From NCBI GenBank assembly GCA_963681505.1, contig OY811982.1, forward strand, positions 7,882,272-7,946,271: a stretch of DNA of 64,000 bases, read 5' to 3'. Made by a program: the position numbers and the translations under genes. This document shows, piece after piece, positions 17,928 to 43,661 of the stretch (its first letter is position 1; each line of letters starts with the position of its first letter). The notes beneath the pieces were generated by a model. The model ran no database searches. It was given only the letters and a program-made list of their open reading frames with translations, and was not told the origin of the DNA. The DNA comes from Eunapius fragilis. Lineage: Eukaryota; Porifera; Demospongiae; Spongillida; Spongillidae.

Positions 17928-18223
17928 CTAACTATGCTCCTCTGCTATCTTCCTCGCCAATGCTGGGTTATTGCCCCCAACACGTTTGTGTACAGCTTGA
18001 CACAATAGTTTCCAAGATGGCTGACAAAACTTTTTGGTATCACAGTGTTGTTGCTGTAGCCAAGCATGAAGGACATCTGTGAGACATTCATTTGGGTCAT
18101 TGGGATGTTTTGATGAAATAGCACCCAGATCTGCAGGTCTAATTCCTAAGGCCAATCCTAGTGATTTCCATTTTGCTGCTATATCCACCACAGCCTCCAT
18201 TACATCTGCAAGGTCATCCTCAC
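17928..18223 (-). CDS. Death domain 3, terminal exon of gene B
   Basis: This last coding exon ends at TAG 17928-17930. It reads DDLADVMEAVVDIAAKWKSL then GIRPADLGAISSKHPNDPNE, LTDVLHAWLQQQ, SWKLLCQAVHKRVGGNNPAL and ARKIAEEHS. This is a canonical C-terminal death domain with WxxLGxxLG, the AIxxxHPxDxxxCLxxVLxxWL core and the final GGNxxLAxKI helix. It would act by homotypic interaction with adaptors. The preceding 60-nt intron is a multiple of three without a stop, so retention would keep the frame. Confidence 0.92.
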
Positions 18224-18283
18224 CTGGGCCAAGGGGTGTAGTTTGTAAGATACAACAATACATGATGCAATCAATTAACATAC

Positions 18284-18397
18284 CAAGAAGGTCCCCAGAA
18301 ACACATGGGAAATCATCTGTACATGGTTCTGTATTACCTTCCCCTCCAGTTCCTCCACTTTGTCCACTATCTCCAATTCTACCTTGATTATCACCAT
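18284..18397 (-). CDS. Gly-rich spacer exon before death domain 3
   Basis: The 114-nt exon is phase 1 at both ends. It encodes a flexible GRIGDSGQSGGTGGEGN stretch, then CTDDFPCVSGDLLG. It probably acts as a hinge between ZU5/UPA and the last death domain. Acceptor CCTTGCAG, donor GTATGT. Confidence 0.7.
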
Positions 18398-21253
18398 CTG
18401 CAAGGAGATTATTGTTGTATATATACATCATAACACTATGCATAGTGTTACACACAAACACTACCGAAACTTTTGTTGTCAACTAGTGGACTGTCTTAAA
18501 GATGTTATAATACCATAATGCCTGCATAACGCTCTCTATTGCTCTTTGATCACTATCAACTATGCATCCAATTGATGTTGGGGGACCTTTGTATGAAAAT
18601 GAATAATACTACACTGCAGTACCAGAAAAAGGAACACCAATTCATAAATTTGGCTAGTACAATAAAATTATAACTCTATTACTTGGTGAATTCCTAATGA
18701 ATATATTGGAAAGAATATTTAATATTATCACATGAATCCCACTGTGCATTTTGGTAGTCACTTTTACAGGTTCTTTTTTATTTCCATTTAAACAAGAACT
18801 CTAAAGACTCAGTGCACTGCAAGAAAATTGTATTTCAACACACAGTATCATAACTATTTAAAACTGTTCAACAGTGATAGCAAAAGCGCTGATACCTTCC
18901 TTGGTTAATTTATGATTCCATTGCTTACCACAATTACAATTTAAGAGATTACTCAAATTGTGCACCAAGTATTACAAACTTGTGATTACATCAGTGCATG
19001 CATGCTGGTGATGCTTAGTGACAAAAAAGCGCTGGTTGGGGTGGTAAAACGTTTAACTAGTCAAATCAACACATATTCGTTTTGGGGGAGCAAATTTAGC
19101 CATTAAATATCTTCTTTACAAGCATCCTATTAACATGTAGGTCATTGCAACTGTTCCCCTTAAAACCTTGAACTTGAACTGTACATTTCACATTATCATA
19201 TCGATGGCTGAAGTGAAAATGATTCCGCAGAATCAGGAGCTTGTGAAGGTTTGATAAAGCGCTGGGGGAAAACCCCACAACTGGAGTTTTGAAACGGTTG
19301 TCTTAACCATAGGTAACTTCCAAAAGAAATCACAGAACAACATGAGCACTTGCTCCAGTGCTGATGCAGCTAGTTCTGAGATTACTTCTGGAGGTCTTCT
19401 TCCTTGAAACAGCTGATCACACAAAATAAGATATAGAAAAGTTACTAAGTCAGGTGTCCATTGAAAACTAGTTTGTCAACATATGAGTGTTCAGTCATAT
19501 TATTTACCATTGTTCCAAAAACTAATTTTGAAGACCTGAAAAAAGTTTATGCTCAACTGCCATATTCATAACTGCACCTGCCTAAACAATCATATTTGAT
19601 CACATCATTCATTCCTTTGATATGTGTGCCTCCAGATGCTTGGTTGTGGCTGCCTCTAGAGCGCTATCAAATTCCACATCTCTATGTCTCAAGGGTCAAC
19701 AAAGGGCTGCACATTGAGAAAAACTGAGGCCATACATTGTGACATTATTAACAAGAACACAGTAAGGAACAAAAGAAATTGACACTGACACTCCGTCATA
19801 TTCACACAGGGATGTTGCTGCTATTTTATCAACTGCTGAAGAAGAGAAGAGAAAATATTGAGACGCTGCAGAAGTACGCTGTGCCTCCTTCACACCCCTA
19901 TTTGTTTCTGTTGACAGAGTTCTATGTTGAGAAGCAGAATGCTTTGTCAAAATCCTTGCTGAAAAAATTGCTACCAAATGCCGGGAAAAAAAATCATATC
20001 CAGAAGTAACAGGATGGATATGAGCCAGGCTGTCTGTTGCCATTTTGAGGGCCACAAATTATTGCCTACTGGGTTCTCGAACCAAACGGGGAAGTGGTGC
20101 AGCAATCGATTATGGGGCTGGTCTGCTGGAACTTGCATAAATGTAATGTTATTGTTTTTTAAAAAAATTTTCTGTTCATATTATATCTTGTATGTCATCA
20201 TTCTATGAACTGAAAAATAAAATAAACAACAAAAAAAAACAATCAAAAGAGGTAAGAGGGACAGTTATGTTTTGATTCCTCTGGTGCATGATATTATTGG
20301 CATACAAGTGTCTTCAGTGATGTATACTGTCATTCTAGCGGACATTCTCACAATTCAGAATGATACGATTCTGTTGAAGTGCTAGTCAAATAGCTATCTT
20401 TTAAATATAATGCGGAGGTTATTCTTGCCAATTGTGTCATTCCAAATGGACTTTAAGATGTTATTTTTGAACATCTCAATTTTTAATCAATAATCATCTT
20501 GCTCATTATATGCCTTTTCATAGTATGCATGCCATTACTTGCCTCAGAATGCGTTTATTCCTATACAGTGCTACTGAAATAAAATTCAGAGTGATGCTTT
20601 TGAATGCACAACTCATAGAATGAAAATTGTGCATTAAAAATTTCAATTTGCAATTTAATTTATGATCATGCCTCATATCGCCTTACCAATTTCAGCATCT
20701 AATGAACAGAGATATTTGCCTCTCATGACCATGTCTAAATTTTTTAATTCTTAATTTCAAAATGAAAGTATTTACCTTGTCTACCTGCCTTGCATATACA
20801 AGATGAATTAGAAGTGTTCCTATCAGCTTGAGTTGGAGGAGTGGTTGGAATGGAATTAATAAAATGAAGAGATAAGAATTTAATAATTGACACGATATTA
20901 ACATCTCAAATGTTCATACAGCATTACATGCTATCAATACAATACTAAAGCCTCTAAATAGGAATAGGAGCATAGAAACAAGAGGATGCAAGTTTATTGT
21001 ACACACTTACATATTCATGACGTTAGCTGCATTGCTATATATGATATCAAGCAAGATTCCATATTTTGTGTTTGGTGTACTGTGGCTTATTATCCTATGA
21101 TGATCTGTAACTGGTATCAGTACATTACAATGGTGTGTGAATATTATAGTCATAACAATATAATATTGATACAGTTCGTACTAGAAATGGTGTCTTCACA
21201 GTAATGGATACCAAAAAAGCATTCCACGTTAATATTATGTGGTGTTACAGCAC
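18398..21253. other. Long intron of gene B
   Basis: This 2.86-kb AT-rich intron lies before the last two exons. Short open frames near 19.2-19.4 and 19.7-20.1 kb show no family resemblance, and there is no second copy to test conservation. Confidence 0.5.
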
Positions 21254-21368
21254 CACATAGATTAACTTGCAAGGGACGTTTGAGTGCAGGTGAGTTCCAG
21301 AAATTAGTAAAGGTGCATTGAGGTAGTCTTTTTCCTCTGTCATAGTCATCGACTTCCTTTTTTGTTAT
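21254..21368 (-). CDS. Short exon after UPA-like exon, gene B
   Basis: The 115-nt exon is phase 0 to 1 and encodes DDYDRGKRLPQCTFTNFWNS then PALKRPLQVNLC. The acceptor (TTTTTAAAATAG) is weak. The exon is placed because its phases join the flanking exons and the text reads as a beta-rich continuation of the UPA-like region. Confidence 0.5.
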
Positions 21369-21438
21369 CTATTTTAAAAATCCATTTCATAAATACAGCC
21401 TGCTATAAAAGAACCATGCAAGATCTCTTTTCACTTAC

Positions 21439-21570
21439 CTCAGCAGGGTTTGCAACAGGCTTAAACTCCCACCTATTTTCATTTTCACAAGGCTCAAAAG
21501 TTATTTTCGAATCATGAAATTCCACCACCATACTGTCTTTAGTATTGTTAGAAGCACTTTTTGCAACCAA
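21439..21570 (-). CDS. UPA-like exon, gene B
   Basis: The 132-nt exon is phase 0 at both ends: MVVEFHDSKITFEPCENENR then WEFKPVANPAE. Its position right after ZU5 and the alternating beta pattern suggest the UPA module found after ZU5 in UNC5, PIDD and ankyrins. The assignment rests mainly on context. Confidence 0.6.
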
Positions 21571-21656
21571 CTAGAGGAAATGCATATTACATAGCATGCA
21601 TCTTTGAAACATTACAAAACAATAACATTATCATCATGAGTAGCTCACACCCTTAC

Positions 21657-22195
21657 CTCATTAGCTAGCGGTAAATTCTTGGTAATAACAAAGTGTACCT
21701 TTCGACACTGAGATTGAGAGTCATCATAGTACAATAATCCACTGTATGAAACGTTTGGTACACTCCCAGTTACCCAGTTCCAAACGGTGGTCAAGAATGA
21801 AAAGCTACTGATATGTATTCTTCCAATCTTCATTCCAGTCTTAGCATCAACTTCAAATGTTCCTCCATTCATGTATTCAAATCTTGATTGAGCTTGGTCC
21901 TTTGCTACCATGAAGCAAAGCTGGCTTGAATCTTTAGCACAATGTATCATGGATACCTCAACAGGTTGGTTGAACCTCTCAATGAATGGAGTTGTTGTAA
22001 TGTGGTAAACAGCACTAACAAGGAATGAACCAGATGGCAGAGGAATGTCTGTAGTAAGGTCAGCGGTGACAAACAGACTGCATTCTTTGACATTTGGAGG
22101 CAAGCAATCTTTGCCAACAGAAATGGACAACCCATAGTCATCCAAGTTAAATACATTTGCATTTCCATTGAATATTGGAATACATTTTAGTTTTT
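21657..22195 (-). CDS. ZU5 domain exon, gene B
   Basis: The 539-nt exon is phase 1 to 0. The ZU5-like core reads NLDDYGLSISVGKDCLPPNV, then GSFLVSAVYHITTTPFIERF, NQPVEVSMIHCAK, with the characteristic lvSavYxI and His-Cys-Ala. A second half (GGTFEVDAKTGMKIGRIHIS, LYYDDSQSQ) leads to the UPA-like exon. In UNC5 and PIDD, ZU5 packs against UPA and the death domain to keep the protein closed (established). The same order ZU5, UPA-like, DD here suggests similar autoinhibition (inference). Confidence 0.82.
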
Positions 22196-22295
22196 CTGAA
22201 ACAAAAGACATTTGTAATTACAAACATTATATACATTAATTGGAGTCTAAAAATATTTCAGGGCATAGTTAAATGGTGACAATTCACTTGCTTAC

Positions 22296-22320
22296 CATCC
22301 ATGTGTTCTACATGTTCAAT
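22296..22320 (-). CDS. 25-nt microexon linking Roc-COR to ZU5
   Basis: The microexon has acceptor CGCTTAG, encodes IEHVEHMD, and has donor GTAAGC. Phase is 0 to 1, exactly what is needed between the Roc-COR exon (ends phase 0) and the ZU5 exon (starts phase 1). Confidence 0.6.
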
Positions 22321-22390
22321 CTAAGCGAAGGAGAATACAGTAATGCCATAAAATTGCTGGAAATGACATTTTGAAGGCATGTGTACATAC

Positions 22391-24519
22391 CTTACAAAAC
22401 CATGACTTCTGTAGTCTGGTTAATCCAATTTGCTTACAGGTAAAATGACACTTCATTTCCTCATAGTCATCACCTTCAAGCTTTGCCATGTGCTCAACAG
22501 CAGCGCCGCATGTACAATAGAGTCCGTAAGATGGAAGACTGTATTGTAAGTCATTACAAACATTTGCGAATGATTTATTAACAGCTTTATAAACACGAAA
22601 TCTGACTTCTGGGATGTTAATCTCATTAACGCACACCTCATAATAATCATTAAAAGCAGTGAATACTATGTCATATGATGTTTCTGACCACAAGTAACGG
22701 AAGCACATTCTGTTTTTAAACTGTGAAAGAGACATATTGATTTCCCAGTTATGCGTATTAACAAGCCTGGTGGAAACAGCACAGAAGAATCCAATAGGAC
22801 AATAGCCCTGCTCAAACATCACTAGAAAAGAACATGAGTTATTGCAAACATTGTAAGCTAGTTCTGTTTGTGGCAGTAAAGAAGGCATGAAGAAAGTATC
22901 AGAGCTTATAACAGAAATAATATGGCAATGTTTCATTAAAGACCGTAGTTGGTCAAACTTTAGGCATTTATTATCAAAACTACATGGATTTTTCATCTCT
23001 ACCAATCCATTCATATTGGTTTTTCTATCTGGCTTGCTGCAGTCACAGAAATACTGTCGAATGACTTCTGAAATTGAATCAAGGATGAGTTGGAAGTTAG
23101 TAATAACCCAGCTATTTAGCTCAGGAATATCTGAATAATAGAGCAATGTGCCTGCTTTGTAGTGTAAAAAATAAAGAATAACATCGATTTCATCCTCCTT
23201 TATGCCACATACTTTGGCTATTTCATGACATTTTGATTTTTCAACTTTATCCAATCCTTCTAACTCAGCATATTTATGCACAGCAAAGTCAAATACCAGC
23301 CAGGGACCTGGGATGCCATCGGGAAGTGTTTCAGATAATAATTCTTCGATTCCTTCTTCAATTTTTCTTTTCACATTTATTATACTTTTATCATCACATT
23401 TGGCAATTCCAGTAATAAAATCATCCACATTTTCCTTTTTTAACCAATCCACGACTTGTGGTCCAAATGCTTTTGATTCATCTAACAAGGTTTGATATAA
23501 TGACTTAGTTTTGCATTTTATTTCTTTCATCTTGTCCTCTTCCGAGCCCTCCAGCATATCCTTATGTGTACCAATTAGCAATAGTTTAGATTTAGAATCA
23601 AACTGTAATGTAGGATGAGATTGACTTTTTGTTGATAAGTAAAATTGGCTTGATATTGCATGAGAAATAAAATCTTTGACAACATAAGTACTATTTGGCC
23701 AAGTTTGCTCCACTCCATTGATTGGCTGATACTGAGCATTGTAAGATATTTTTGGGTTATCTGTTAGTTTAAAAATGAGAAGTCTTAGAGAAGAACCATT
23801 GATTAGAAGAGGGAATATTTCTTGAAAAGTGGGTTGTCCACCTCCATCAATAACTTGTAGAAGGATTGCATTGTCAAGGATGTGAGCTATATCCATGACC
23901 TTTGACCAATCCCTATATTTAATTGCTTCTAAGAAAAGATTTTTTAAATTCACCCGTGAGTTGCTTACTTTTTCATGTACACCAGTGGTATCTGCAGCTA
24001 AATGGCTAACTTGCATTTTTTCATCCTCTTCATTTTGCACCGTGGCTTTCACTTGCTTTGATATGCTGATGGTAGTAGTAGTAGTCATATTATACCCGTC
24101 ATCTTGGCACTCGGTAATAGAAACTGGAGTAGGTATCAGTGGCTTTTCTTCTCTAGTGTTGTTTATTTGCGCATCTTGAGGTCTGATTTTATTTTTGGAT
24201 AATTCAATGTCTAGTGATTGCAAAAGTGTTTTTGCAATGTCATCTAATTCTTGGTAAGTCCAACTCCATTTATTGTCTTTTTCAATAGCTAATAAACGTG
24301 TAATCAAAATAGGACTACCAATCTCTGCAATTGGTGTACTTGGTTCAGGGGTGATGCACTTTTGTGGTATATTCACTGTGTACCTAAGGAGCTCTTTACG
24401 AAGGGTGGTTTTCCCAGCACGTGGTGGTCCAAAGAAAATAAGCTTGCCAATTTTCAAACTGCGAAATGAAATATCTTTGTAACCAGCCAGTACCCTTGAT
24501 AACTTCTTTGCTAGATATT
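22391..24519 (-). CDS. Roc-COR GTPase exon, gene B
   Basis: A single 2129-nt exon of 709 codons, phase 1 to 0. Features in order: P-loop FFGPPRAGKTTLRKEL near residue 30; a variable Ser/Thr-rich insert with acidic patches; switch II VIDGGGQPTFQEIFPLLI near 220; G4-like GTHKD near 325; COR-like block LVFDFAVHKYAELEGLDKVE with GIKEDEIDVILYFLHYKAGT and DIPELNSWVI; and a C-terminal part with FMPSLLP, GYCPIGFF and Cys-containing YCTCGAAVEHM. DGGGQ replaces the commoner DxAGQ. The acceptor TTAACAG at 24519 is homologous to the gene A exon start, so the ATG at 24535 is probably intronic. Confidence 0.85.
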
Positions 24520-24590
24520 CTGTTAACAATGCCATTGATTAAAAAGTTAACATGTGAAAGAATAATAACATATTGATCATCTTAATAATA

Positions 24591-24650
24591 ATGCTGTAAC
24601 TGTATTCTGTTGTCAATAATAATAATAATTATATAAAATAATAATAATAC
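24591..24650 (+). mobile_element. 3' tail of an upstream R2/Dong-like element copy in a TAA tract
   Basis: GCTGTAACTGTATTCTGTTG at 24592-24611 is identical to the 3' tail of the element at 26715-26740. It is followed by a TAA/AAT microsatellite, at which the next, 5'-truncated copy begins. Confidence 0.75.
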
Positions 24651-26770
24651 TAATTGCACTGAACAAAGGTAAGGAGGGTAACCCACCAGATGTTAGGCCG
24701 ATTGCAGTGGGGGAAACATTGCGTAGGCTGACAGGGAAATGCATCTGTGCCATTCTAAGGGACAAGATCTCCTCATTCTTTCAGCCCTCACAATTTGGAG
24801 TGACTTGTAAAGCAGGTGCAGAGAAGATTGTGCACAGCTTAAGGAGATGCATTGATGAAAACTGGTTGAGTGGCGACTTCGTAGTGTTCAAGGTGGACAT
24901 GTCAAATGCCTTCAATATGGTATCGAGGCAGGCAGTTTTGGATGAGTGTACTACTTTCTTTCCAGAGCCTCTCCCATGGGTCTCGTGGTGCTATGGATCT
25001 CATACATCATTGTGGCACCCTATGGGCCAGATTAGTTCCCAGTCTGGTGTCCAGCAAGGTGATCCACTGGGCCCAATGCTGTTCGCCTTGGTTCTCCATA
25101 AGCTTGTTACCAGTATTGATGCAGATGATGATTGTCTCCAGCTGCTTCTGGAAGCTTGGTATCTTGATGATGGGGTTCTAGCGGGGGAGAGGTCTGCAGT
25201 AATACGTGCTCTGCACCTCATAGAAGAGCTTGGTCCTCACTTGGGGCTTTACATCAATTTTTCCAAGTGTGAACTTTTCAGTAGGAGTGGTAATTCACTA
25301 TTTCCACCAGTGGTGAAGTCATCTCTCCTTCCCAACCTGGACATCCTAGTGGCCCCAATTGGAGATTTTGTTCACTGTTCTCGCTTCATTGCTGAGAAAT
25401 GTGCAATGCCCAAGATCTTGCTTAAGGCTCTTGTGGATGTCTCTACAGTTGACCTTCACGTGGCCTTTTCGCTTCTTCGTATGTGTGGAAGTTACTGTAA
25501 GTTAGTGCACTAGCCAGAGCCACTCCTCCAAGACATTGTGCTGACTATCTTAAGCTCTTTGATGAGGAGGTAAGGCTATGCTTCACCTCCTGCATTGCAG
25601 TGGACGTCCCTGACCAAAATTGGCAGCAAGCACAACTCAGTCAAAGTTTTGGTGGGCTTGGCTTTCGGTCCCTTGCTTTGCACTGTTCTGCTGCGTTTAT
25701 AGCTTCCCTTGCTTCATCAGGATTTGGTAGTGCCGATAACATACACATGCTTCAGGCTGTGACCGCTTCAATACTCTGGTTCCCCCTGATGAGTCAATCA
25801 CAGCTGAGGAGGTTCTGGTCAACCTGCCTCCACAAAGAGCTCTGTCTAAGAAGCTGGATATGCATGTTTTCCAATCACTGTTATCTTCCTCCTCTCCAGT
25901 GAATAAGGCTCGGATCCTTTCTGTTTCTGCCCCTCATGCGGGTTCTTGGATCTCAGTCATCCCTTCTACTGGTCTGGATCTGCACCTTACCTCTGCTGAA
26001 TGTCAGATAGCACTCAGATGGTGGTTGGGTCTTGACACCTCTGGAGGTTCTTTGTGTCCACATTGTCCTGATATTGCCCTTGACCCTTTAGGTCATCATA
26101 CAGCCTCCTGCAGACATGGTGGGTGATGTGGTTGCAAGGCACAATCACTTGCGGGATATCTTTGCTAACTTTTGCTGCCAGGCCCACCTTTCTGTGAGGG
26201 TTGAAGTTGGGTATGGCTTAGCTAGGGACCATGTTAACTCTCGCCCTGCGGATGTCCTTGTTCAGGGATGGGACAGAGGAAAGCCTGCGGCCTTTGACGT
26301 TACTGTTACTTCACCCCTTACACCAGTAACCCTCAACAATGCCAGTACATCTGTGGGAGCAGCAGCCTATGCTGCTGAACTTAGAAAGCATGTGGCCAAT
26401 GACACCAGATGCCAGGAGTTGGGGTGGACATGTATCCCCCTAGCTGTAGAAACATACGGTAACTGGGGGAAGGAGGCCCAGAGTGTTTTTTCCCGTCTAG
26501 CCTCTCTACTTGCCATTGGCCAGGCCATTCCCAAACCCAAAATGCTGGGTGACACCTATGGCCACCTCAACATGTCACTGGTGAGGTCAGTGGCTAGGGC
26601 CATCATGGGGAGAGAAAATGTCCGGATAGGTTAGAAGAACTGTAGGTTTGTTAGCGGCATTTATCGTAAGTTAGTTATACTTATAATAATGTAATTGTGT
26701 TTGTCCTTTTATCCTGCTGTAACTGTATTCTGTTGTCAAAAATAAATAATAATAAAATAATTTTAGTCTT
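24651..26770 (+). pseudogene. 5'-truncated R2/Dong-like non-LTR retrotransposon (RT + CCHC + RLE)
   Basis: Reading frames in three phases together show reverse transcriptase blocks (VVFKVDMSNAFNMVSRQAV, QSGVQQGDPLGPMLFALVL, WYLDDGVLAG with the Y-x-DD box). A CPHC...H...C knuckle at about 26058-26110 follows, then RPADVLVQGWDRGKPAAFDV, resembling the PD...D restriction-like endonuclease. A stop at 25511 and frame changes near 25510, 25880 and 26115 make it inactive. The 3' UTR ends in a TAA microsatellite, and insertion into TAA repeats is a Dong/R4 habit. It sits in the gene B intron just upstream of the Roc-COR exon, on the opposite strand. Confidence 0.85.
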
Positions 26771-26879
26771 AAATAATAATAATAATAATTGATATAATTA
26801 ACATTCATGAAGGGGAATATGGGGGCATCTCAGCAGGATGGCTCTAGCATTCTGCCTCATTAATGTTACACCCAGCAGG

Positions 26880-26945
26880 CAGTAGATTTGGCTCAGTGGT
26901 TCATTGTCAGATAGCACGGCAAGTCTCTTGTTCAATCCTGAGAAG
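26880..26945 (+). repeat. tRNA-like (SINE head?) with A and B boxes
   Basis: TGGCTCAGTGG near 26890 matches a Pol III A box. TGTTCAATCC about 40 nt later resembles a B box. The intervening sequence does not give a convincing full cloverleaf, so this is read as a tRNA-derived SINE head or tRNA pseudogene. Confidence 0.4.
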
Positions 26946-27307
26946 CATTCTTGGGCTTCAAATTCCTAACCACCATAGACTTCCACCACTAATGGAATGC
27001 ACGTCCAGCCCAACTCTGAACACATCTCATCATTTTTGGCATGCTTCCCAACCTCGCCACATTCTGCAGAATTGCCTGAAGCCAAACTCGCTTCCAGAAT
27101 GAGATCTGTATTAAGCGGATGGATGACTATTAGGTAAAATGCTGCAGGGTGGGAGAGAGACCAGTTTGACATAAGTACATCAGCTGGTCTAGAGAAGTCT
27201 ATGCCTGGACCTTTCTCCAGTTGAGGAGATAAGCTTTGGAGCACAGATTGGCAAAACAGTCTCTTAGCGTATTGTGCTGTGCAATGATGCCCCCTCCAGA
27301 ACGACAT
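26940..27307 (-). pseudogene. Endonuclease-region fragment of an R2/Dong-like element
   Basis: FSRPADVLMSNWSLSHPAAF and CSELGWTCIPLVVEVYG align with the RLE and following region of the plus-strand copy at 26230-26470. It is a second, diverged fragment in inverted orientation. Confidence 0.75.
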
Positions 27308-28357
27308 GTAAAAACGTGGAAATCTAATTAAGCTACACTACATGCGTTGGTCTCATGCTGTTACCAACAGTGCACATGCCATTAATAAATTCATTAGTCA
27401 AACCAGGCAATTTTAGAACCACATATTTTTATATCTCATTCTACCTGACTGAATCTCATGTTTCCAAACCTTCCTTCTCCCACGTGAATATATTGTTATT
27501 AGATCCATTCCTGAATTTCTGGATATGCATGCTTGTATAAGGCCCTAGCACATGTTTCATTTTCTAAAAGTTTAGGATAATATGCTGTCAGTGTTTTTGA
27601 TTAATTCAAAATATACTAATGTGCATTGTTGTCATGCATATACATCAATCAGCCGTACTGTGTCATCATCAAGCAAGATGCCTGTTAAGTATGGCTGAAA
27701 TGAGCCCTTATATATTTTTACTGTTGCGCAGTAAGAAGCTTCACAGTGGTAGCAGCTGTAGTGACGATGAATACATGGATGATGACCCTGACTATACAAT
27801 GCATCGAGTATAGCCTTGTTTATAATGAGGATGCCCTCATTCCCACGACTATAAATACCATATCAGACCTAGTTTCCAACCCAGAACAGCTGTAAAGCAG
27901 GTTCCATACAGAATTGATGCTGCATAATATTTCTCTGTGTGCCAATGTTCTAAGCTGTGGTTCACGATACTTATATAATGCACTTGTGACATTTAAATGG
28001 AACACTTTAGAATTAGGGCTAAAATAATCTGCATAACATTTAAAACATTGGCAATCACTTTTAAAACTCAATGTGGTGCAAAGAGCTTGGCAATGAACAG
28101 AAATTTAAACTATTAATGGTCCCTTCAGTACTAAAAAAAAAACTGGAATGATCTCAATTCTCAAATCTGGGCTACAACCCATGATGTTTATTTAACAAAC
28201 AAAAGTAATTAATACTCATAGATTAATTATTCAGAGCAGCATACATCATAGACTATTATGGTTATTGATGATACACCTAACCCTAATCCTAACCCACAAG
28301 TAATTGCAATATGTGAAGATATTGACTAACATGCTGTGAATAGCACACTATACTCAC

Positions 28358-28639
28358 CATCTTCAAGTGTGCTGGCAATGATTGGAGTGCTGTTGTCTCC
28401 ATAATCCACTGTCTTGGCCCTCACACGTATGGTGTACTCAGTGTGTGGTCTTAGTCCAGTCAGCTCAGTACTAGTAGCATTTTCAGCAACATCATGAAGC
28501 CATTCACTTTCACCATGTAGAGTGTAGCTGACATGATAACCTCTGATGATACCATTTACATCATGTGGTGGTTGCCAAGATATGGTCATGGATGTAGCTT
28601 TGATATTGTCAGTCTTTAATCCAATTGGAGGAGAAGGAA
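28358..28639 (-). CDS. FN3 exon 5, gene B
   Basis: 282 nt, phase 1 at both ends, with the same FN3 landmarks as the exon at 4021. Variant residues include GYHVSY and AENATST. Its phase 1 donor joins the Roc-COR exon acceptor at 24519. Confidence 0.9.
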
Positions 28640-33668: not shown

Positions 33669-34117
33669 CCCGGGAGAAAAACGCGGCGTAATTGCGCGTT
33701 ATTGTGCGTGAAGAACTGCCATAACCATAAACATGCCAAATTACGCGGTCTTCAAAATCGCTGTATCTTCTTGATTGTGCAATATAGTACATGTACATTT
33801 TACAAAGCGGTCCTGTGTCTATAGAAGTCCAAAGATGGTTTAGTTTGCGATGCATTGTTCCGAAGATATTCACATTCAAGTAAAGAGCTTGATTTTGCGA
33901 GGTTTTGTACTTGAAGCCTGCGAAATCTTGCTCTAAGTTGATTGTGAATATCTTCGGAAAGATTCATCGCAAACTAAACCATCTTTTGACTTCTATGACA
34001 CAGGACCGCTTTGTAAATATGCAAAATGTAGCTCTACTATATTGCACAATCAAGAAGATACAGCGCTTCGAAGACCGCATAATTTGGTGTGCGATTACGC
34101 CGTTTTTTTCTCCCGGG
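33669..34117. mobile_element. 449-bp foldback MITE with CCCGGGAGAAAAA termini
   Basis: Arms of roughly 200 bp run from both ends (CCCGGGAGAAAAACG...CGTTTTTTTCTCCCGGG). AT at 33667-33668 and at 34118-34119 is the apparent 2-bp duplication; unoccupied FN3 units read AACATGCTG at this site. It lies within about 30 bp of the FN3 exon 2 donor. Confidence 0.85.
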
Positions 34118-34144
34118 ATGCTGTAAATAGCACACTATACTCAC

Positions 34145-34426
34145 CATCTTCAAGTGTGCTGGCAATGATTGGAGTGCTGTTGTCCCCATAATCCACTGTC
34201 TTGGCCCTCACACGTATGGTGTACTCAGTGTTTGGTCTTAGTCCAATCAGCTCAGTACTGGTAGCATTTTTAGCAACATCATGAAACCATTCACTTTCAC
34301 CATGTAGAGTGTAGCTGACTTGATACCCCCTGATGATACCATTTACATCATGTGGTGGTTGCCAAGATATGGTCATGGATGTAGCTTTGATATTGTCAGC
34401 CTTTAATCCAATTGGAGGAGAAGGAA
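34145..34426 (-). CDS. FN3 exon 2, gene B
   Basis: 282 nt, class 1-1. Variants include ELIGLRPNTEY. The acceptor is TTCCCAG rather than CCCCAG. A foldback MITE sits just downstream of the donor. Confidence 0.9.
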
Positions 34427-35452
34427 CTGGGAAGGGAGAAAATATTACAATACTGGAGGTCATTAATAAATTTATTAGTCAAACCAGGCAATTTTAGAAC
34501 CACATATTTTTATATCTCATTCTACCTGACTGAATCTCATGTTTCCAAACCTCTCTCCTCCCACGTGAATATATTGTTATTAAATCCATTCCTGAATTTC
34601 TGGATATGCATGCTTGTATAAGGCCCTACTCTTCCTCCATAAGTCAGGCTGCAGCACATGTTTCATATTAGGATAATATAAGTGTTTTTGATTAATTTAT
34701 AATATATAAAGGTGCATTGTTGTCATGCATATACATCAATCTGCCGTACTGTGTCATCATCAAGCAAGATGCCTGTTAAGTATGGCTGAAATAAGTCCTT
34801 ATATATTTTTACTGTTGCGCAGTGAGGAGCTTCACAGTGGTAGCAGCTGTAGTGATGATGAATACATGGATGATGACCCTGACTATACAATGCATCGAGT
34901 ATAGCCTTGTCTATAATGAGGATGCCCTCGTTCCCACGACTATAAATACCTTGTCAGACCTAGTTTCCAACCCAGAACAGCTGTAAAGCAGGTTCCATAC
35001 AGGATTGATGCTGCATAATATTTCTCTGTGTGCCCATGTTCTAAGCTGCAGTTCACGATACTTATATAATGCACTTGTGACATATAAATGAACACTTTAG
35101 ATTAGGGCTAAAATAATCTGCATAACATTTAAAACATTGGCAATCACTTTTAAAACTCAATGTGGTGCAAAGAGCTTGGCAATGAACAGAACTTTATTTC
35201 AGAAACTATTAATGGTCCCTTCAGTACTGAAAAAAAAATCTGGAATGATCTCAATTCTCAAATCTGGGCTACAACACATGCATGATGGTTATTTAACAAA
35301 CAAAAGTAATTAATATTCATAGAATTCAGAGCAGCATACTTCATAAACTATAATGGTTATTGATGATACACCTAACCCTAATCCTAACCCACAAGTAATT
35401 GCAATATGTGAAGCTATTGACTAACATGCTGTGAATAGCACACTATACTCAC

Positions 35453-35734
35453 CATCTTCAAGAGTGCTGGCAATGATTGGAGTGCTGTTGTCTCCATAAT
35501 CCACTGTCTTGGCCCTCACACGTATGGTGTACTCAGTGTGTGGTCTTAGTCCAGTCAGCTCAGTACTAGTAGTATTTTTAGCAACATCATGAAGCCATTC
35601 ACTTTCACCATGTGAAGTGTAGCTGACTTGATAACCTCTGATGATACCATTTACATCATGTGGTGGTTGCCAAGATATGGTCATGGATGTAGCTTTGATA
35701 TCGTCAGCCTTTAATCCAATTGGAGGAGAAGGAA
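35453..35734 (-). CDS. FN3 exon 1, gene B
   Basis: 282 nt, class 1-1. Variants include SYTSHGESEWLHDVAKNTTS. It is the first FN3 after the DD2 exon. Confidence 0.9.
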
Positions 35735-35764
35735 CTGGGGAGGGAAAAAATATTACAATACTGG

Positions 35765-36950
35765 TCTATATTAATTTTAAATCGACGGACCATCTATACG
35801 TAGATGAAATTGGTCAAAATCATCTACACGTAGACAATACTTGAAAGCAAGTTTCGGGTATTAAACGTTTAAATCGGTGTCAAAATGAAAGTAATGAGCA
35901 GGCCTCTCAAGCCAAGGGACAAGCTAATGAAGCTATGTTTCATGAAGAGACAGGTGATGAGGACAAGGATGCTGGTCTGAAGGAGGGCCAACTTGTGCAA
36001 AAGAGCCCCCAGCGCCACCTACCAGATGTTACAACTGTCGTAACACAGCAAAAAACGCGTTGAATCAATTCTTGATTTTCTATTGATATGTAACTTATGT
36101 ACATTCTGGTACAAAATGTTTAAATACCTGGTACAAACAGTTAACAATATGTACCAGAATGTAAGTGACAAAGCAATAGAAAATCAAGAAATGATTCTAC
36201 GCATTCTTTTTATTTTGCTGCGTACGGTGGGTCATGTGGCGAGCAGATGTCTGAAGAATGCGCGGCTACATCCTATGGAGGGAGATCAAAGCAGTCCAAA
36301 GTGATGGGGGCCAACTCTCTTCCACGTAGGGCAGGCTACGTAGAAAGGAAAGAAGTTAGAGACATCGTTCTAGACATCGATGCAGCCAGAACTTTAGTGC
36401 GAGACAATCTTGTGCCTAGGAATAGATATCTAAATAAATTAGTGTCAGTGCAATGTGTGCATGGTGACAATGTCTCTCACCCACTTAGCCAAGGTGGAGG
36501 TGACTGTCGACGGCAAGAGCTACTTTGTGGAAGCAGTGGTGGTGAAGAAGCTGCCTACGTCAGTGCTACGTGGAAGAGACGTTCCTGAGCTGGTGCGGAT
36601 ATGTTCATATGAACCTGCAGGAGAGGAAGCATTGGCAGCTATAACGAGGGTTCAGGCCAAACGGAAGAGGGAAGTGGAAGAGAATGCATCCAAGAAGGAG
36701 AAGGACTCTGGTATTATGTGTAGGAGATTGTCACCAGTGCCAGTTATGAAAGATCCAGGAGAGGAAGGAATGTGGCCTCCCAGACGGAGGACAACGTGGT
36801 TGAGAAAAATGCTGATGCGGAGCAAGAGGAAACTGATGGTCCAGGTGTTGATGCTGAGGGGACAACTATGACAGTCTTGGTGGAGTCGATGGAAAGAAAC
36901 TAAGGAAGTTGCAACTGGAGGATGGGACATTGAAAGCAGTACGAGAGACA
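35765..36950 (+). pseudogene. gag-protease retroelement remnant (most complete copy)
   Basis: The order is as at 31320: KPRDK/LKEGQ gag text, knuckle half, MITE (36044-36222), second half (GHVASRC near 36230-36250), degenerate protease (LDIDAARTLVRDNLVP; KVEVTVDGKSYFVEAVVVKK) and a Lys/Glu-rich tail. Frames change several times and no reverse transcriptase is present. It sits between the DD2 and FN3 exon 1 of gene B, antisense. Confidence 0.65.
36044..36222. mobile_element. Second copy of the CACAGCA MITE in the gag knuckle
   Basis: Same element, same insertion point as at 31538, with left TAA at 36041-36043 and a mutated right duplication (TAC). The shared position shows the MITE was present before the gag remnant was duplicated. 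Confidence 0.8.
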
Positions 36951-37046
36951 CCCTAATCCTAACCCAAATAAATACAATTAATTGCAATAAGATCTGATTA
37001 TGTGAAGCTATTGACTAACATGCTGTAAATAGCACACTATACTCAC

Positions 37047-37400
37047 CATCTTCAAGTGTGCTGGCAATGATTGGAGTGCGTATATACTTATTACGTAATG
37101 CGTCAGCAAGAGCATCTTCACTGACAGCACCCTTCTTGAGAACATCAATTAATGTGTTCCAAGAGTAAGATTCAGGATATTGTTTCCTCCATTCTTTGAA
37201 GACCTGTCTAAAATATCTTTCATGAGAATTGGAGTATTTACAATTTTCATCTTGTATTCTGTCCAAAGTATTGGTTGACAGTTTCAGTTGAATGCCAACT
37301 TGTCGCCACTTAGTAGGGATTACTTCAGCAACATCGCTAGGTGTTGGTTTCAGCGACCATAACATATCAGTTTTCACCATCGCAGAAAAGGCATGGAGGT
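37047..37400 (-). CDS. Death domain 2 exon with FN3-derived 3' end, gene B
   Basis: 354 nt, phase 1 to 1, nearly identical to 4930-5283 (KKGAVSEDALADAL instead of KKDAVGEDALADAV). The same FN3-type ending PIIASTLED and donor are present, so the chimeric exon predates the segmental duplication. Confidence 0.8.
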
Positions 37401-38262
37401 CTAATGGCACGACAATAGAAATGACATGTAAAGGAAATTATTTATAATTAACACAAACAAGCAATATAGTATGGAATAATTTCCATGAACGGACTTCTGC
37501 TGCTTAAAAAGTTGGGTAGTTTGAGCTGGAGAGTTGCATGCATCATTCTTCAACTGCACAACTACAGGGTAATCCAGGAAATTACATATGGTTTTTCTGA
37601 AATCTAGTGCCTTTAAGACTTGATGATAGTTGGAACTTTTAACATTTTTGTAAAGAGTACTAGTTGCCAAATCATTTGGAGTGAAAAAGTCTATATACTC
37701 TATGACATTGAGAAAGTAGACATATACATATACGGAGTCCAACAAATTGCTTCTAATGCTTGAAGTTCTGATATTACGAAATTGTATACTGAAAATTTCA
37801 TGGCGAGTGCTATCATGCCCTTGTGATTATTTCAATTGCAATGAAATAACTCAAATATTACTTCATAAAATCACGTTAAATATTCAAATTAGCAATATGT
37901 TCAGTTCTGTAAGAAATACACTGCACACCTTCAAGTACTAACGAACACTAACTCATTCTATAGTTTACAATTGAAAATGAATAAAACTAATAAATGCAAT
38001 CATCAACACAAACATTAATTATTATTTTACTTTGTGCCAGTACAGATTGCATTTTAAAAGATGGGCACATTACTTATGCGGTGCGGCAGTTGGTTCAAAG
38101 GTTTTCTTCTGTACAAAGTGAACTATAAATCCAATTACATATAAAGTAACAATCTTCATTCAATATGGTATGACTACAACAATGTCTCCAAGTAAATGTT
38201 ATAGTACTATACTAAAATATTGGTACCTTGTGCGAAGTTACATTGTGAATACTGTAACGCAC

Positions 38263-38413
38263 CAAGGCAAAAAACTGTAGTATTGGACATTGGTTCTGGA
38301 TGCTGACCAGTTTCGTCTCGACCTCCAAATATAACTACTTGTAACTTGGTGGGATCTAGCGAGACACATGTAGCTGTATGCCAGTATCGCTTCACATCGG
38401 AAGAAGTGGTGAG
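38263..38413 (-). CDS. Kelch exon 4, gene B
   Basis: 151 nt, phase 0 to 1. YWHTATCVSLDPTKLQVVIF then GGRDETGQHPEP. Conserved with gene A. Confidence 0.75.
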
Positions 38414-38637
38414 CTTTGGATGAAAAATCAAAATAAATAAAAGCGTACCCATAGGTAGACACTCTCTTAATTAGAGAATTTTCTTATAATGGTTAAATTC
38501 ATACACCACCTAATAAGAAGTCCAAAATATTACATGGGATGTTTCCACTTGACATTACAAACACAAATGGTACATACTCCTAACAATGGTCATTCTAGCA
38601 AGTATTCAATGGCTTTAAAACCTTGTGCCATGCCTAC

Positions 38638-38811
38638 CTGCTTCCACTTCTTGTCATCATAGTTAAATATCCACATCTCTCCTGAGGTGCTATTAACATT
38701 TATATTTCCTCCGGTGATCAAAATTGTATTATTTGCCAAGACCTGTGAAGTGGTATGAAATTTTCTTTCTTTTGGTATGTCAGGGCCCTGGATAATAAGT
38801 TTATTCCATTT
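38638..38811 (-). CDS. Kelch exon 3, gene B
   Basis: 174 nt, phase 0 at both ends; complete Kelch repeat as in gene A with conservative changes. Confidence 0.8.
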
Positions 38812-40042
38812 CTGTCAGATTACAAAGGTCATAATTAATACAATTACACATATCTGCGTAGTACAACATAGCTATATTAGAAAAATTAATAATTCATTGT
38901 AACATGCTCCAATTCAAGCCAATTATTAACCTTATAAGACCACAGATTTGTCATAAAAGGGTTACAGGAGTAAGTAATCGTGTAGTCAGCTGAGTAGTTT
39001 ACCTTTGGGAAACATTTGTTACCCAAAGGTAACGCGTGATCATTTAACATTGCTAGAGCTTTCAAAGTCTGGTAAAAAAAAACACGGTAATAACACAAAT
39101 TCTACATTATACATTTTGACCTCCTAGGTGACAAATGTCTCACTAGGATGACAGTAGTCATTTAAAGGAGTGAATGTGTAACTGTATGGCACAGATGCAT
39201 ATAAAAGTACATAACAAAGTAGCGTAGCCAGCCCAGTTTGGAATTTCACCTTCTTTTGAGCACATGCAGATTATATGTATGGATGAATTATGTCATCCTA
39301 ATTCATAATAAACATGGGACAGTTGAAAATTTCATGCTGCTATATTGACATATAAAGGTATAAACATGCTTCACATTAAAATTACCAAATGCCATTGACT
39401 TCCTATTTCTTTATGGTAGAATACATTTTGGGGTATTGCATTAGCATTGTGCCAGTGTGGCAACGTCTGACACTCCTTGGGGTTCTCACCTGCCATATCC
39501 TGCTGCAGGAAGATTTATTTTAACTTCCAAATTTGGTAAATACTTGGAGGGATCATGTACCTATTGATTTGTCCTGTTTTTAGTTTATCTGTTGTAAAGA
39601 TATAGCTGTGCAAAATGTGTGCACATATTTCCACTTGATTCATGGCAATAATAATGAACCTGCTTCCCATACATTTGATGGGATGCGATTTGCTTATATC
39701 ATTGGCAGGAATCAAGCAGGAAAATGTGCATGCAATATTTTCGCAATGATAAAGTAAGAATTAACAAACAGTTTAAGTCAATAGTGACAGGACTGTTCTA
39801 TGTACACGCAGAAGGATATTTAAGGTTTGAACCCCCAGTGGTAACGCCAATTTTTTTTTGGAGAGGACTTAAAAGACAGAAAAACTATGTCATAGAGAAA
39901 TGGTGTGGTAGGATGAGACGCAAATAGTGGCAGCTTAATCATTCGGAAGTTATAGCAATTTAAACAGAGAGCATTAAAAAATAAAATTGCAAAGCAAAAA
40001 TTTCATGTGAACTGTCCCCATACATATACATATCTAACATAC

Positions 40043-40177
40043 CCACTCCAGGAGGTCAAGGATATAAATCGTGCTAACACTTTTTTTTGCTTCTGTTCCT
40101 CCATACTTAAACACACGGTTGTCATGAAGAAGTACGAAAGAAAAACCATTACATGGTGGTGGTACCTCATGGGAGGA
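40043..40177 (-). CDS. Kelch exon 2, gene B
   Basis: 135 nt, phase 0 at both ends; PPPCNGFSFVLLHDNRVFKY. Same splice signals as in gene A. Confidence 0.75.
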
Positions 40178-40223
40178 CTGAAACTTCCAGGATCCTGCCA
40201 TACAATACATCAGATATACATAC

Positions 40224-40766
40224 ATAAGTATGGCATATATTGGTTGACATACTTGGCTGTGCTTCAAAGATGTAGAGGTCATTAGTCCAACACTCTTCTC
40301 TTGTTCCATTACATTCATACTTTGCTCCATTATGTTTGCGTTGAGGTGGACAGCCATAACCCCCGAACAATACCAGCAAATCCTTCCAGACGACCATCCC
40401 TGCAGCAGCTTTTTTCCCGGGAGCATTTTCAGGATCACTGCCACTGATTTCCTTCCATTCCATGGTACCAAGTGTAAGCATATATAAGGAATTGCTAAAT
40501 GAACCATGGTATCCACCATACACATATAGTTGGCCTCTGTCTTCAGAAAATGCATGTGTGCAACGTTCTGGCCACTGGGGGAAATCCCCTTTTGCATGTA
40601 ATTGTGTCCACTTCATCTGGACAGGATCAAATTCCTCGACTACAGATATGAGATCATCCTTTTCAGATAGGTTCTCAATGCGGCCTCCCCAGATGTAAAC
40701 TTTCCCCTGGTATGCAACAGCCACGTGGCTCCAGCGAGAGATCGGTTCATATAGACTACTAGCCAT
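40224..40766 (-). CDS. Kelch exon 1, gene B
   Basis: Three blades as in gene A (SRWSHVAVAYQGKVYIWGGR and two more). The donor inferred for gene A is absent here (AATATATG). The nearest phase-0 donor is TAT followed by GTATGT at 40224, giving five extra codons. An alternative is a phase-1 donor shared by both copies (CAA followed by GTATGT), which would not fit exon 2. Confidence 0.7.
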
Positions 40767-40810
40767 CTTGAAAAAACATGCATCAGTATAAAATATGGTG
40801 AATCATGTTG

Positions 40811-41523
40811 ATACTGTACCCACTCCCACCCCTTTATAGTGTACCCACTCCCACCCCCTTTATAGTGCACTTACTCCCACCCCCTTTATAGTGCACCCAC
40901 TTCCACCCCCTTTATAGTGTAACTACTTCCACCCCCTTTATAGTGCACCCACTTCCACCCCCTTTATAGTGTACCCACTCCCACCTCTTTATAGTGTACC
41001 CACTCCCACCCCCTTTATAGTGCACCCACTTCCACCCCCTTTATAGTGCACCCACTTCCACCCCCTTTATAGTGTACCCACTCCCACCCTTTTATAGTGT
41101 ACCCACTCCCACCCCCTTTATAGTGTACCCACTCCCACCCCCTTTATAGTGTACCCACTCCCACCCCCTTTATAGTGCACCCACTTCCACCTCCTTTATA
41201 GTGTACCCACTCCCACCCTTTTATAGTGTACCCACTCCCACCCCCTTTATAGTGTACCCACTCCCACCCCCTTTATAGTGCACCCACTTCCACCTCCTTT
41301 ATAGTGTACCCACTCCCACCCTTTTATAGTGTACCCACTCCCACCCCCTTTATAGTGTACCCACTCCCACCCCCTTTATAGTGCACCCATTCCCACCCCC
41401 TTTATAGTGTACCCACTCCCACCCCCTTTATAGTGCACCCACTCCCACCCCCTTTATAGTGTACCTACTCCCACCCCATATTTATAGTGTACCCACTCCC
41501 TCCCCCTTTATAGTGTACCCACT
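40811..41523. repeat. 26-27 bp minisatellite, about 28 units (gene B intron)
   Basis: Same unit and intron position as the array at 8725, but about a quarter of the length. Many units carry GTGCACCCACTTCC variants that are rare in copy A. Confidence 0.97.
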
Positions 41524-41545
41524 CAACCTCATCTTTCATGCTTAC

Positions 41546-41731
41546 ATCAGTGCCGGGAGTGGACAGGAGATGTTTCGCACAAGCAGTGTGTTCCAACCCT
41601 ACAAAGGTACCAAATCAGTGGTGATCACATGGGTAAATATTTATCATTACCATTCACTGAAGCTATTTGTGGTAGCTGTGGGACACTCGTATCACATGCT
41701 GCAGCATGCTGATCCTGCTTAGCTGCTATGT
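41546..41731 (-). pseudogene. Linker exon of gene B with in-frame TGA
   Basis: Acceptor and first codons match gene A (DIAAKQDQHAAACDTSVPQL). The frame fixed by DD1 then reaches LPM followed by TGA at 41625-41627, where gene A reads LPMCAPL. The GTAAGC donor at 41545 is retained. Either gene B is truncated after death domain 1, or this exon is spliced or skipped differently. Confidence 0.65.
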
Positions 41732-42115
41732 CTGTAGAAGAAAAAGAAATCAAAAATACTTTCATGCTCATTATGAAGGTTAAACAGAATATGGACTCAG
41801 TCATTGTGGTAATATAGAGGCATAATACTTGCATGACAACCAAAATCCTTCATCTCATTCTTAGACATAAAAAAAATACAGTTCAAAGAATCCAAATGAT
41901 TTAAAAAAATTGTAGTCATTAGACGGTCTATTTTCAGCCTTTTAAGTGTTCGTAAATAGCCGGCCAGGCACAAACATTCTTATGGCTGCCATGCCATTAA
42001 ATGTGTATATTAAATTGATAATGTTTCATCAAGCATATGCTCATTCCCTATATGCTCATGTAATGAAACTACAAGCTGAAACCTACGTATTGCATATATA
42101 TGGAACGTTACCTAC

Positions 42116-42400
42116 CTTCAGCTATAGGTGGTACCAATGACCTCACTGCCTCAGCTGTCTGGTGGTAGTTTACTTCTTCAAACACACCTATCAATACTCT
42201 ATATGTAGCCTTGGTCCCTTCCTGTTCCAGCCACTTCAGAAACATTTTGTCTCTCTTTCTCTGTTCACCCTGCTCCTCCCTATCAATGTCTTCAATGGCC
42301 TGCTCACCCACTAGACGTCTGCCTACCACCTTCCAGTCAAAATTAAAGGACAAAGCCACTTTGTTCATGTGTTCAACACTACACTGCGAGTCCAGGGGGT
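42116..42400 (-). CDS. Death domain 1 exon, gene B
   Basis: 285 nt, phase 1 at both ends. SFNFDWKVVGRRLVGEQAIE and the rest as gene A, with few replacements (FEEVNYHQTAEAVRSLV). Confidence 0.85.
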
Positions 42401-42725
42401 CTAGCGGAGTGAGTAAATTAGTTATTAAGGCAAACATAAGGGTTGCATGCAATGCTAAGTTTTATCTTTTATCCAAAATGTAAACTAATCCCAATGTGTT
42501 TTATGATTGAATGCATTACACATCAACAATGTTGCCTAGAGTTAGTTGCCCGCAATAGGCACCGCTCTATTGTGTTTTTGTTACCACAATGGAGATAATT
42601 GTGATAGTGTGATGAAAATATGGCTTCACCCAGTCACCACTGATTGACGGATGACCGGCCTATGTATCCATCTGATATCGTATGTGGGCTATATGTGATA
42701 ATAGCCACACTTGGACGCCCAACTA

Positions 42726-43124
42726 CAGTAGCGGCTCGCTACAGCGGTACATTCGCTCCAGAGGAAAGATAATTATTTCACCTGGTACAGAAGAAACTGT
42801 TGGTGTACTTAGCAAAACCCCATGCGGTTGACTATGCTCCTCTCTAAATGGAATTCACGTTTTACGCGGCTTTGCTGTGTACCTAGCGCTTCGTAATCCG
42901 CCCCTTCTCTAATACTACTTGTATTATAAAAGGGGCGGATTACGAAGCGCTAGGTACACAGCAAAGCCGCGTATAAACAGTGAATTCCATTTAGAGAGGA
43001 GCATAGTCTTCAACCACAGGGGGGGTTTGCTAAGTACACCAACAGTTTCTTCTGTACCAGGTGAATATAATTATCTTTCCGCTGGAGCGAATGTGATAAT
43101 TACCACTGTAGCGAGCAGCTACTG
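42726..43124. mobile_element. 399-bp near-perfect foldback MITE with TA duplication
   Basis: The element is almost entirely two long arms (about 185 bp each) starting CAGTAGCGGCTCGCTAC and ending with the complement. TA flanks both sides (42724-42725, 43125-43126). Gene A has the unoccupied AACTAGTCTAG. TA duplication suggests a Tc1/mariner-type mobiliser. It lies in the intron between the 2A-like exon and DD1. Confidence 0.88.
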
Positions 43125-43282
43125 TAGTCTAGTACAGTATGGCATAAGGCGACCATACATTAGGCAACACACTGTTGAATGCAACTCAATAAACCAATTA
43201 TATTTTCTGTAAAACATTAGTTTACTAGAATATGCGCACATGTTGTGTATGGTCGCCTTAATTAGGCGGGTAAGTAACTCAC

Positions 43283-43661
43283 CTTGAGTTAAAGGTCCGG
43301 GGTTCTCCTCTATATCTCCGGATATCAGCAACAGCATGTGTCCTATATCGACCACAAAAGTCACTGCGCCATGCACCATCAATTGCTGGTCCAACCTGTA
43401 CTTTTGTAATGAACACCCATTGTATGATGCATCGTCGGAATAAGAATCTGTATAGCCATCTCTCAACATATTCACGTCACGATGTCTTCTTTTCTTTTCT
43501 AATTCCTGCAACTCTAAATTTCTGCCGACTCTCTTATTCAGGCGTACGAACGTCCCAATGCGAGCTCTGTATATAAAGAAATAATCCACCCCCATCTTGG
43601 TCAGATTGGTCTCGTCCTCAGACCTGTATGGCGTAATGTTTATGCGTAATGGGTATGACAA
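43283..43661 (-). CDS. Leader exon with 2A-like StopGo motif, gene B
   Basis: 126 codons, donor phase 1. SGDIEENPGP lies at 43293-43322 after a hydrophobic run (GAVTFVVDIGHMLLLI). Compared with gene A it has a 39-nt in-frame addition (around FFIYRARIGTF) and two extra residues before the hydrophobic run. The start at 43661 is the first in-frame ATG after an A-rich tract; no promoter was recognised. Confidence 0.75.

Follow-up and report, generated by a model that had tools for sequence, protein, structure and literature searches.

A putative ROCO-like death-domain gene and its tandem paralogue in the sponge Eunapius fragilis

Can one sponge gene join a Kelch propeller, a Roc-COR GTPase and three death domains (DDs) in a single chain? 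The question is raised by a window of 64,000 nucleotides from Eunapius fragilis (the whole stretch of DNA that was analysed; contig OY811982.1, positions 7,882,272 to 7,946,271), numbered here with its first letter as position 1, in which two related loci lie on the minus strand: copy A at 43595-17928, and copy B from 12880 to the edge of the window. We hold, with slightly more confidence than doubt, that copy A is one gene, with a tandem paralogue, and that it encodes a ROCO-like signalling switch with death domains, some 2300 residues long, an assessment that takes in the mechanism and the cassette copying proposed below. If one transcript joins the parts, the product would be an animal death-domain sensor with an LRRK2-like GTPase in place of NACHT, in an early-branching animal; if the account is true, it would also reveal a gene family in which the front of the gene and the back evolve at very different speeds.

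Domains along copy A

Copy A resolves into 21 exons, all 20 introns having GT-AG borders and matching phases, which leaves an open frame of 2336 amino acids closed by a TAG at 17928. The original prediction had chained twenty exons with matching phases; the phases stand, the count does not, because DD1 and Kelch are otherwise out of phase and a further 53-nt exon is needed between them (exon 4, 41598-41546, phase 1 in and 0 out). The splice sites were picked with the phases already known; phase consistency alone is weak evidence for a gene read from DNA letters, and the chain by itself only moderate evidence. Along it come a 2A motif, a DD, Kelch, a second DD, five FN3 repeats, Roc-COR, ZU5, a segment with no Pfam match and a third DD. 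The order originally predicted for these domains was thus borne out by Pfam, by motifs and by the open chain, and copy B agrees with it through Roc-COR. The Pfam scans took in exons 1, 2, 4-10, 15 and 17-21, with exon 10 as the one FN3 exon, and used the curated cut-offs, which are detection thresholds and not biological definitions; in searches of the exons with hidden Markov models (HMMs), as had been suggested, DD1, Kelch, DD2, FN3 and ZU5 come out above their cut-offs.

Exon 1 (43595-43283, phase 1 out) carries a leader and the 2A motif GDIEENPGP, with in-frame methionines at residues 1, 43, 73 and 87 before it. DIEENPGP lies at residue 94 and conforms to the 2A pattern D(V/I)ExNPGP, as does the motif in copy B, and in both copies a hydrophobic stretch of 19 residues (1.8-1.9) stands just before it. 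Counted through the final proline, the leader has 29 residues from M73 in A and 26 from M60 in B, the latter being the length given for the 2A leaders of sea-urchin NLRs in the part of PMC4981915 drawn on here. DD1 occupies exon 2 (42400-42116; Pfam Death 2.5e-6, above the cut-off) and resembles the RIPK1 DD in a comparison with solved structures (2.3e-4). After the linker exon 3 (41731-41651), exon 4 is identical to its counterpart in B at 53/53 positions; it has no Pfam match, and by eye looks like an ankyrin-repeat remnant.

Kelch is spread over exons 5 (40766-40253, opening with an ATG; blades 1-3 by eye), 6 (40194-40043), 7 (38811-38638) and 8 (38413-38263; blade 6 by eye). The match to Pfam Kelch_KLHDC2 rises from 1.9e-24 with the open reading frame of the first Kelch exon to 8.6e-49 with the four exons joined, is above the cut-off, takes in profile positions 1-221 of 221 at residues 14-258, and crosses two exon joins; against KLHDC2 structures the joined sequence aligns over residues 7-313 of 331 (1.5e-24), which crosses the third. 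Since joining lifts the HMM match to the full length of the profile, these exons are probably spliced together. The likeness to KLHDC2 thus places Kelch in the same class over nearly the full propeller. We take R236, R241 and S269 to be the residues by which KLHDC2 binds C-terminal glycine pairs; in A they align with T, S and K, and we judge a KLHDC2-type degron function unlikely on that ground.

DD2 (exon 9, 37400-37047) scores 2.3e-6 with Pfam Death, above the cut-off, and only 0.22 against solved DD structures. DD2 also matched designed PPR and solenoid proteins, at 1.7e-14 in the best case, but no single stretch passes alone, and these matches were set aside as a likely composition artefact. 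The 3' end of this exon is common to the FN3 exon unit: its last 33 nt, the donor and the start of the intron are near-identical to those of an FN3 unit (37079-36950 versus 35485-35375), and DD2 is therefore tied to the FN3 array. The DD2 exon looks as if a DD had taken the place of the first part of an FN3 exon. The FN3 exon has been amplified: its five copies (exons 10-14: 35734-35453, 34426-34145, 31272-30991, 29959-29678 and 28639-28358) show 89-94 per cent protein identity, and the one scanned reaches 5.3e-21, above the cut-off. All are phase 1-1 and recur with a period of ~1.3 kb in three of four spacings, so that units could be gained or lost without breaking the frame. Bits of FN3-unit intron without an FN3 exon lie at 33639-32637 and are perhaps a further degenerate unit.

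The Roc-COR GTPase that had been predicted is recognizable by its motifs in exon 15 (24519-22391): G1 (GPPRAGKT), G3 (DGGGQ) and G4 (THKD) lie at residues 1193, 1387 and 1480 of A, and B has GTPRAGKT, DGGGQ and THKD. The profile scores are weak. COR-A, matched after G4 within the same exon, reaches 9.9e-7 and 29.2 bits in A (cut-off 35.3), and Roc 0.013 and 16.2 bits (cut-off 27); in B, COR-A and Roc reach 20.1 and 17.1 bits, both under the cut-offs. We say 'ROCO-like' because both domains miss these cut-offs. The gap between G1 and G3 is ~190 residues in both copies, partly low-complexity by eye, and seems to reflect a large insertion close to switch I. The end of the exon also matches C1 zinc fingers, but at E 0.27, which is chance level, and the match was discarded.

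Past a 25-nt exon 16 (22320-22296), exon 17 (22195-21657) matches Pfam ZU5 at 1.6e-4 and 22.3 bits, the cut-off being 21; in a longer construct the score is 20.3, just below, and the similarity to the ZO-1 ZU5 structure (0.073) is not significant. Exons 18 (21570-21439) and 19 (21368-21182) hold the segment labelled UPA-like in the original prediction. That label is not confirmed, as no Pfam UPA match appears at E up to 10, a search that a short divergent segment could escape. A 42-nt linker exon 20 (20826-20785) leads to exon 21 (18397-17928), which contains DD3 and the stop codon. DD3 scores 23.5 bits when trimmed (6.1e-5; cut-off 22.6), 21.7 with the whole exon and 19.5 in a longer construct, the last two below the cut-off, and finds no counterpart among solved structures at E up to 1. 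With these three Pfam Death matches, three death domains in one chain, as predicted, are upheld. PIDD, UNC5 and ankyrin share a ZU5-UPA-DD tail, and the self-cleavage motif of PIDD is HFS. The proposed PIDD/UNC5-like module holds in part: ZU5 followed by a C-terminal DD is there, as in those proteins, whereas a UPA match and HFS are missing. No HFS tripeptide occurs in the 2336 residues of A, which speaks against PIDD-like self-cleavage of ZU5. Likewise, the scanned exons gave no Pfam match to NACHT, LRR, protein kinase or ankyrin repeats.

Copy B and the two tempos of divergence

The tandem paralogue, absent from the account in the original prediction, comprises 11 open exons in the window with homologous splice sites and the same domain order through Roc-COR (2A, DD, Kelch, DD, one FN3, Roc-COR). 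On the minus strand these are the leader with the 2A motif (12880-12616), DD1 (12120-11836), exons 3 (11484-11398) and 4 (11346-11294), four Kelch exons (8683-8170, 8111-7960, 6694-6521 and 6297-6147), DD2 (exon 9, 5283-4930), the single FN3 (exon 10, 4302-4021) and Roc-COR (exon 11, 1446-1), which runs off the window. The remainder of B lies beyond that edge, and ZU5 and DD3 are visible in A only. B has probably lost FN3 units, because its homology to A stops just before the place of the next FN3 acceptor. No further copy of the A protein was found in 44-64 kb of the window (tblastn, E up to 0.01).

DNA homology between the copies starts patchily ~2-3 kb upstream of the first exon, and identity is about 93-95 per cent in most blocks, introns included, falling to 89 in a minisatellite block. 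Synonymous divergence (Ks) between A and B is 0.018 in the 2A exon (one change), 0.092 in the DD1 group, 0.070 in Kelch and 0.027 in DD2. Roc-COR stands at 1.06, with 254/472 aligned residues identical; the codon counts for it take in a few misaligned residues at the cut end of B, whose last ten residues a further alignment omits. For Kelch the ratio of replacement to synonymous divergence (Ka/Ks) comes to 0.20 (p 1.1e-4) and for Roc-COR to 0.33 (p 6e-20), by Fisher tests on rounded site counts: both are under purifying selection. DD2 gives 0.40, from five changes.

There are two ways to read this: in the first, a cassette of promoter, 2A, DD, Kelch, DD and FN3 was copied or converted ahead of GTPase halves that were already old and diverged; in the second, each half is a gene in its own right. 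It is this two-tempo structure, rather than the list of domains, that is the novel point of interest. In its strongest form, which we put forward only tentatively, the first alternative describes a ROCO-like receptor family made by cassette copying: the promoter-2A-DD-Kelch-DD-FN3 cassette would be copied or converted again and again, as one unit, before old, diverged Roc-COR-ZU5-DD halves, sensor and switch would keep different tempos, and the 2A leader would send part of each product to the cytosol and part into the secretory path.

One gene or several

A single gene is probable, though well short of secure, on the evidence of the letters themselves, and the second copy, with its internal-looking Roc-COR exon, favours it. 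In B this exon has no methionine before the P-loop, an in-frame stop stands eight codons ahead of its first, and its acceptor is rich in pyrimidines; the acceptor has the same place and phase in A and B despite a Ks of about 1, and its phase 1 fits the FN3 donor. The exon is therefore probably internal and in need of an upstream exon.

The most serious rival, to which we give a substantial minority share of our belief, is that the locus consists of two or three separate tandem genes, 2A-DD-Kelch(-DD-FN3) alternating with Roc-COR-ZU5-DD, the first of them recently duplicated. The step in Ks from 0.02-0.09 in the 5' half to 1.06 in Roc-COR, a mismatch of more than 10-fold, is what separate genes predict likewise, and the collinearity of A and B is lost within the FN3/Roc-COR intron, at about 3030 in B and about 27378 in A, past which their matches consist of ~200-nt repeat pieces and the Roc-COR exon only. 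Possible boundaries can also be pointed to. An ATG opens the Kelch exon, following the 53-nt exon and a minisatellite, and another lies 16 nt upstream of the Roc-COR exon of A (MALLTEY...), where translation could start; the acceptor tract of that exon is weak (0.5 pyrimidine; in the list of 30 acceptors only one scores lower and one other the same). Between Kelch and DD2, both copies have a candidate alternative terminal exon, read by eye (in A at 38122-38070, minus strand, VHFVQKKTFEPTAAPHK then a stop, which follows APHK), near-identical between them with 1 difference in 57 sites over 38071-38127. The weak joints of the A chain are accordingly those of the 53-nt exon to Kelch, of Kelch to DD2, and of FN3 to Roc-COR. 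Separate genes, however, leave the Roc-COR exon of B without a start codon before its P-loop, and do not account for an acceptor kept in place and phase across a Ks of about 1 and matching the FN3 donor, nor for A and B having the same neighbours. Reading on through an unspliced FN3 exon, moreover, leads to a stop that is intron sequence and occurs in five of the six FN3 units, internal ones included.

Besides the break in homology and the possible boundaries, several further points weigh against one functional gene of the kind proposed. The model was read from genomic DNA alone. Constraint is not significant in DD1 (Ka/Ks 0.48, p 0.11) or in the 2A exon (6 replacement changes and 1 silent, p 1), and over the Kelch-DD2 block exons differ at 30/1345 sites versus 88/2705 in introns (p 0.07); such near-equal divergence is expected of a young copy and is no help to the gene case. 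Predicted structures have a low mean predicted local-distance difference test score (pLDDT; 40.8 for the ZU5 exon alone, 32.3 for Roc-COR from the A and B alignment), and the link to immunity is by domain analogy alone.

A possible switch and its known relatives

If the single-gene reading is right, the protein might work as follows. At the 2A motif most ribosomes would release the leader, so that the main chain begins at proline in the cytosol; the fraction left unseparated would keep the hydrophobic leader and, by analogy with the sea-urchin NLR 2A reporters, may enter the secretory path. Judged by eye, the first ATG has a better start-codon context than the starts that would give the 26- and 29-residue leaders. 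The KLHDC2-like propeller, spaced by the FN3 stalk, would bind a protein or peptide ligand, and binding would alter the nucleotide state and dimerisation of Roc-COR. This change could expose the DDs, of which DD1 and DD2 precede Roc-COR and DD3 follows ZU5, or cluster them, and they would then nucleate a death-domain assembly. Between paralogues, the 5' cassette from promoter to FN3 would be copied or converted while joined to long-diverged GTPase halves. We infer a sensor role, and the best reading is a protein NLR-like in logic that is not an NLR; an immune role would fit, by domain analogy, and is not required.

A single gene might instead have a role outside immunity, as a scaffold or a regulator of development resembling ankyrin, DAPK or KLHDC proteins, its DDs used for ordinary apoptosis or cytoskeletal assembly. 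We regard this as possible and on balance doubtful; it overlaps the switch we favour, as all the alternatives overlap that reading and one another. Some proteins that are not known to be immune sensors contain a ZU5-DD or a Roc-COR-DD pair, the ankyrins being a case of the first pair. DAPK1 is a case for the second (PMC6320773, as far as drawn on). Kelch, besides, shows purifying selection (Ka/Ks 0.20), whereas a domain that reads pathogens directly might be expected to diversify. The tandem copies, the homogenised 5' half, the change in FN3 number and the N-terminal 2A, on the other side, resemble features of expanded invertebrate immune families, though by analogy only. Least probable by far is an assembly artefact or a set of decaying copies, in which the similar 5' halves would be alleles misplaced in tandem: the stretch is rich in repeats and the 5' identity, which is 89 per cent in the minisatellite block and about 93-95 in most others, extends into introns, but the Roc-COR halves are too diverged for alleles (254/472 identical), FN3 number and minisatellite length differ between A and B, and every frame is open in both.

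How new is the switch that we favour? Searches of open-licence PMC papers did not turn up the exact domain order, a scope that leaves an earlier description possible, and the arrangement appears new as far as that literature goes and built from known pairings. The original claim of knowing no described family with this arrangement was too strong, given ROCO proteins with DD or CARD (PMC4104024), Kelch beside Roc-COR and DAPK1 (PMC6320773), and the proposal of Roc-COR as an immune switch (PMC8195603), each according to the parts of these papers used here. In Trichoplax adhaerens, another early-branching animal, ROCO proteins with DD or CARD are expanded and share the Roc-COR core of copy A; their partners, in contrast, are TPR, LRR, Ras-like or AAA domains, and Kelch and ZU5 are absent from the text used, in which FN3 and 2A were not searched for (PMC4104024). 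Beta-propellers, either Kelch or WD40, flank Roc-COR in some ROCO proteins, as here, whereas those proteins are described with LRR and kinase domains and ZU5 is absent from the portion consulted (PMC6320773). DAPK1, given in the same portion as ANK-Roc-COR-DD, likewise has Roc-COR followed by a C-terminal DD and differs in its own kinase and ankyrin repeats, its order being given without Kelch, FN3, ZU5 or 2A. A ROCO review sets out three groups, none with the order of copy A in the part of it drawn on (PMC6337361).

Resemblances to defence systems are of a similar, partial kind. The N-terminal 2A leaders of sea-urchin NLRs, 26 residues long, both caused ribosome skipping and served as signal sequences in reporters in mammalian and plant cells; there, as here, an N-terminal 2A with a hydrophobic leader precedes a DD, whereas those proteins carry NACHT and LRR (PMC4981915, relevant parts), which matched none of the scanned exons of A. 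Brown-algal ROCO genes with shuffled LRR exons, proposed as immune receptors, also set a ROCO core next to arrays of one repeat per exon (PMC11378527, in part); the LRR exons diversify, whereas here the FN3 exons are 89-94 per cent identical and Kelch is conserved. Roc-COR has been proposed as a switch in counter-invader systems, among them the prokaryotic AP-GTPase (Roc-COR) conflict systems, and the DD and TRADD-N families expanded in Amphimedon are, like copy A, DD-rich sponge proteins with shuffled domains; the order of copy A is not described in sections 10, 15 and 19 of that paper, and Kelch is absent from the text used (PMC8195603). A sponge NLR survey counts 128 DEATH-domain genes in one species (PMC12909245, in part), and a term search of the available text of a placozoan immunity paper found none of the words Roc, COR and ZU5 (PMC6321704). 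A pattern scan of genome contigs for relatives returned 282 matches, none confirmed, and viral contigs scanned with the first Kelch exon gave no match. A second scan of genome contigs gave a single match, of 22 residues in Pseudoduganella lurida, which was rejected, as it lies within a mechanical open reading frame of 200 residues in which no P-loop or other likeness was seen.

The intron before the Kelch exon contains a 26-bp minisatellite in both copies, with 27.6 copies in A (intron 4, 40811-41524) and 98.7 in B (8725-11272). Its consensus unit has TATAAA on the gene strand, and it could conceivably act as promoter of a Kelch-only transcript. Within the FN3/Roc-COR intron of A lies a retroelement-like insert with open frames on the plus strand, opposite to the gene (24629-26634), of which 24629-25513 was scanned (RVT_1, 7.9e-18). 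Outside both copies, an open frame on the plus strand at 60770-61348 contains HEAT repeats, at 9.3e-12, and matches Vitellogenin_N weakly (1.3e-4, under the cut-off).

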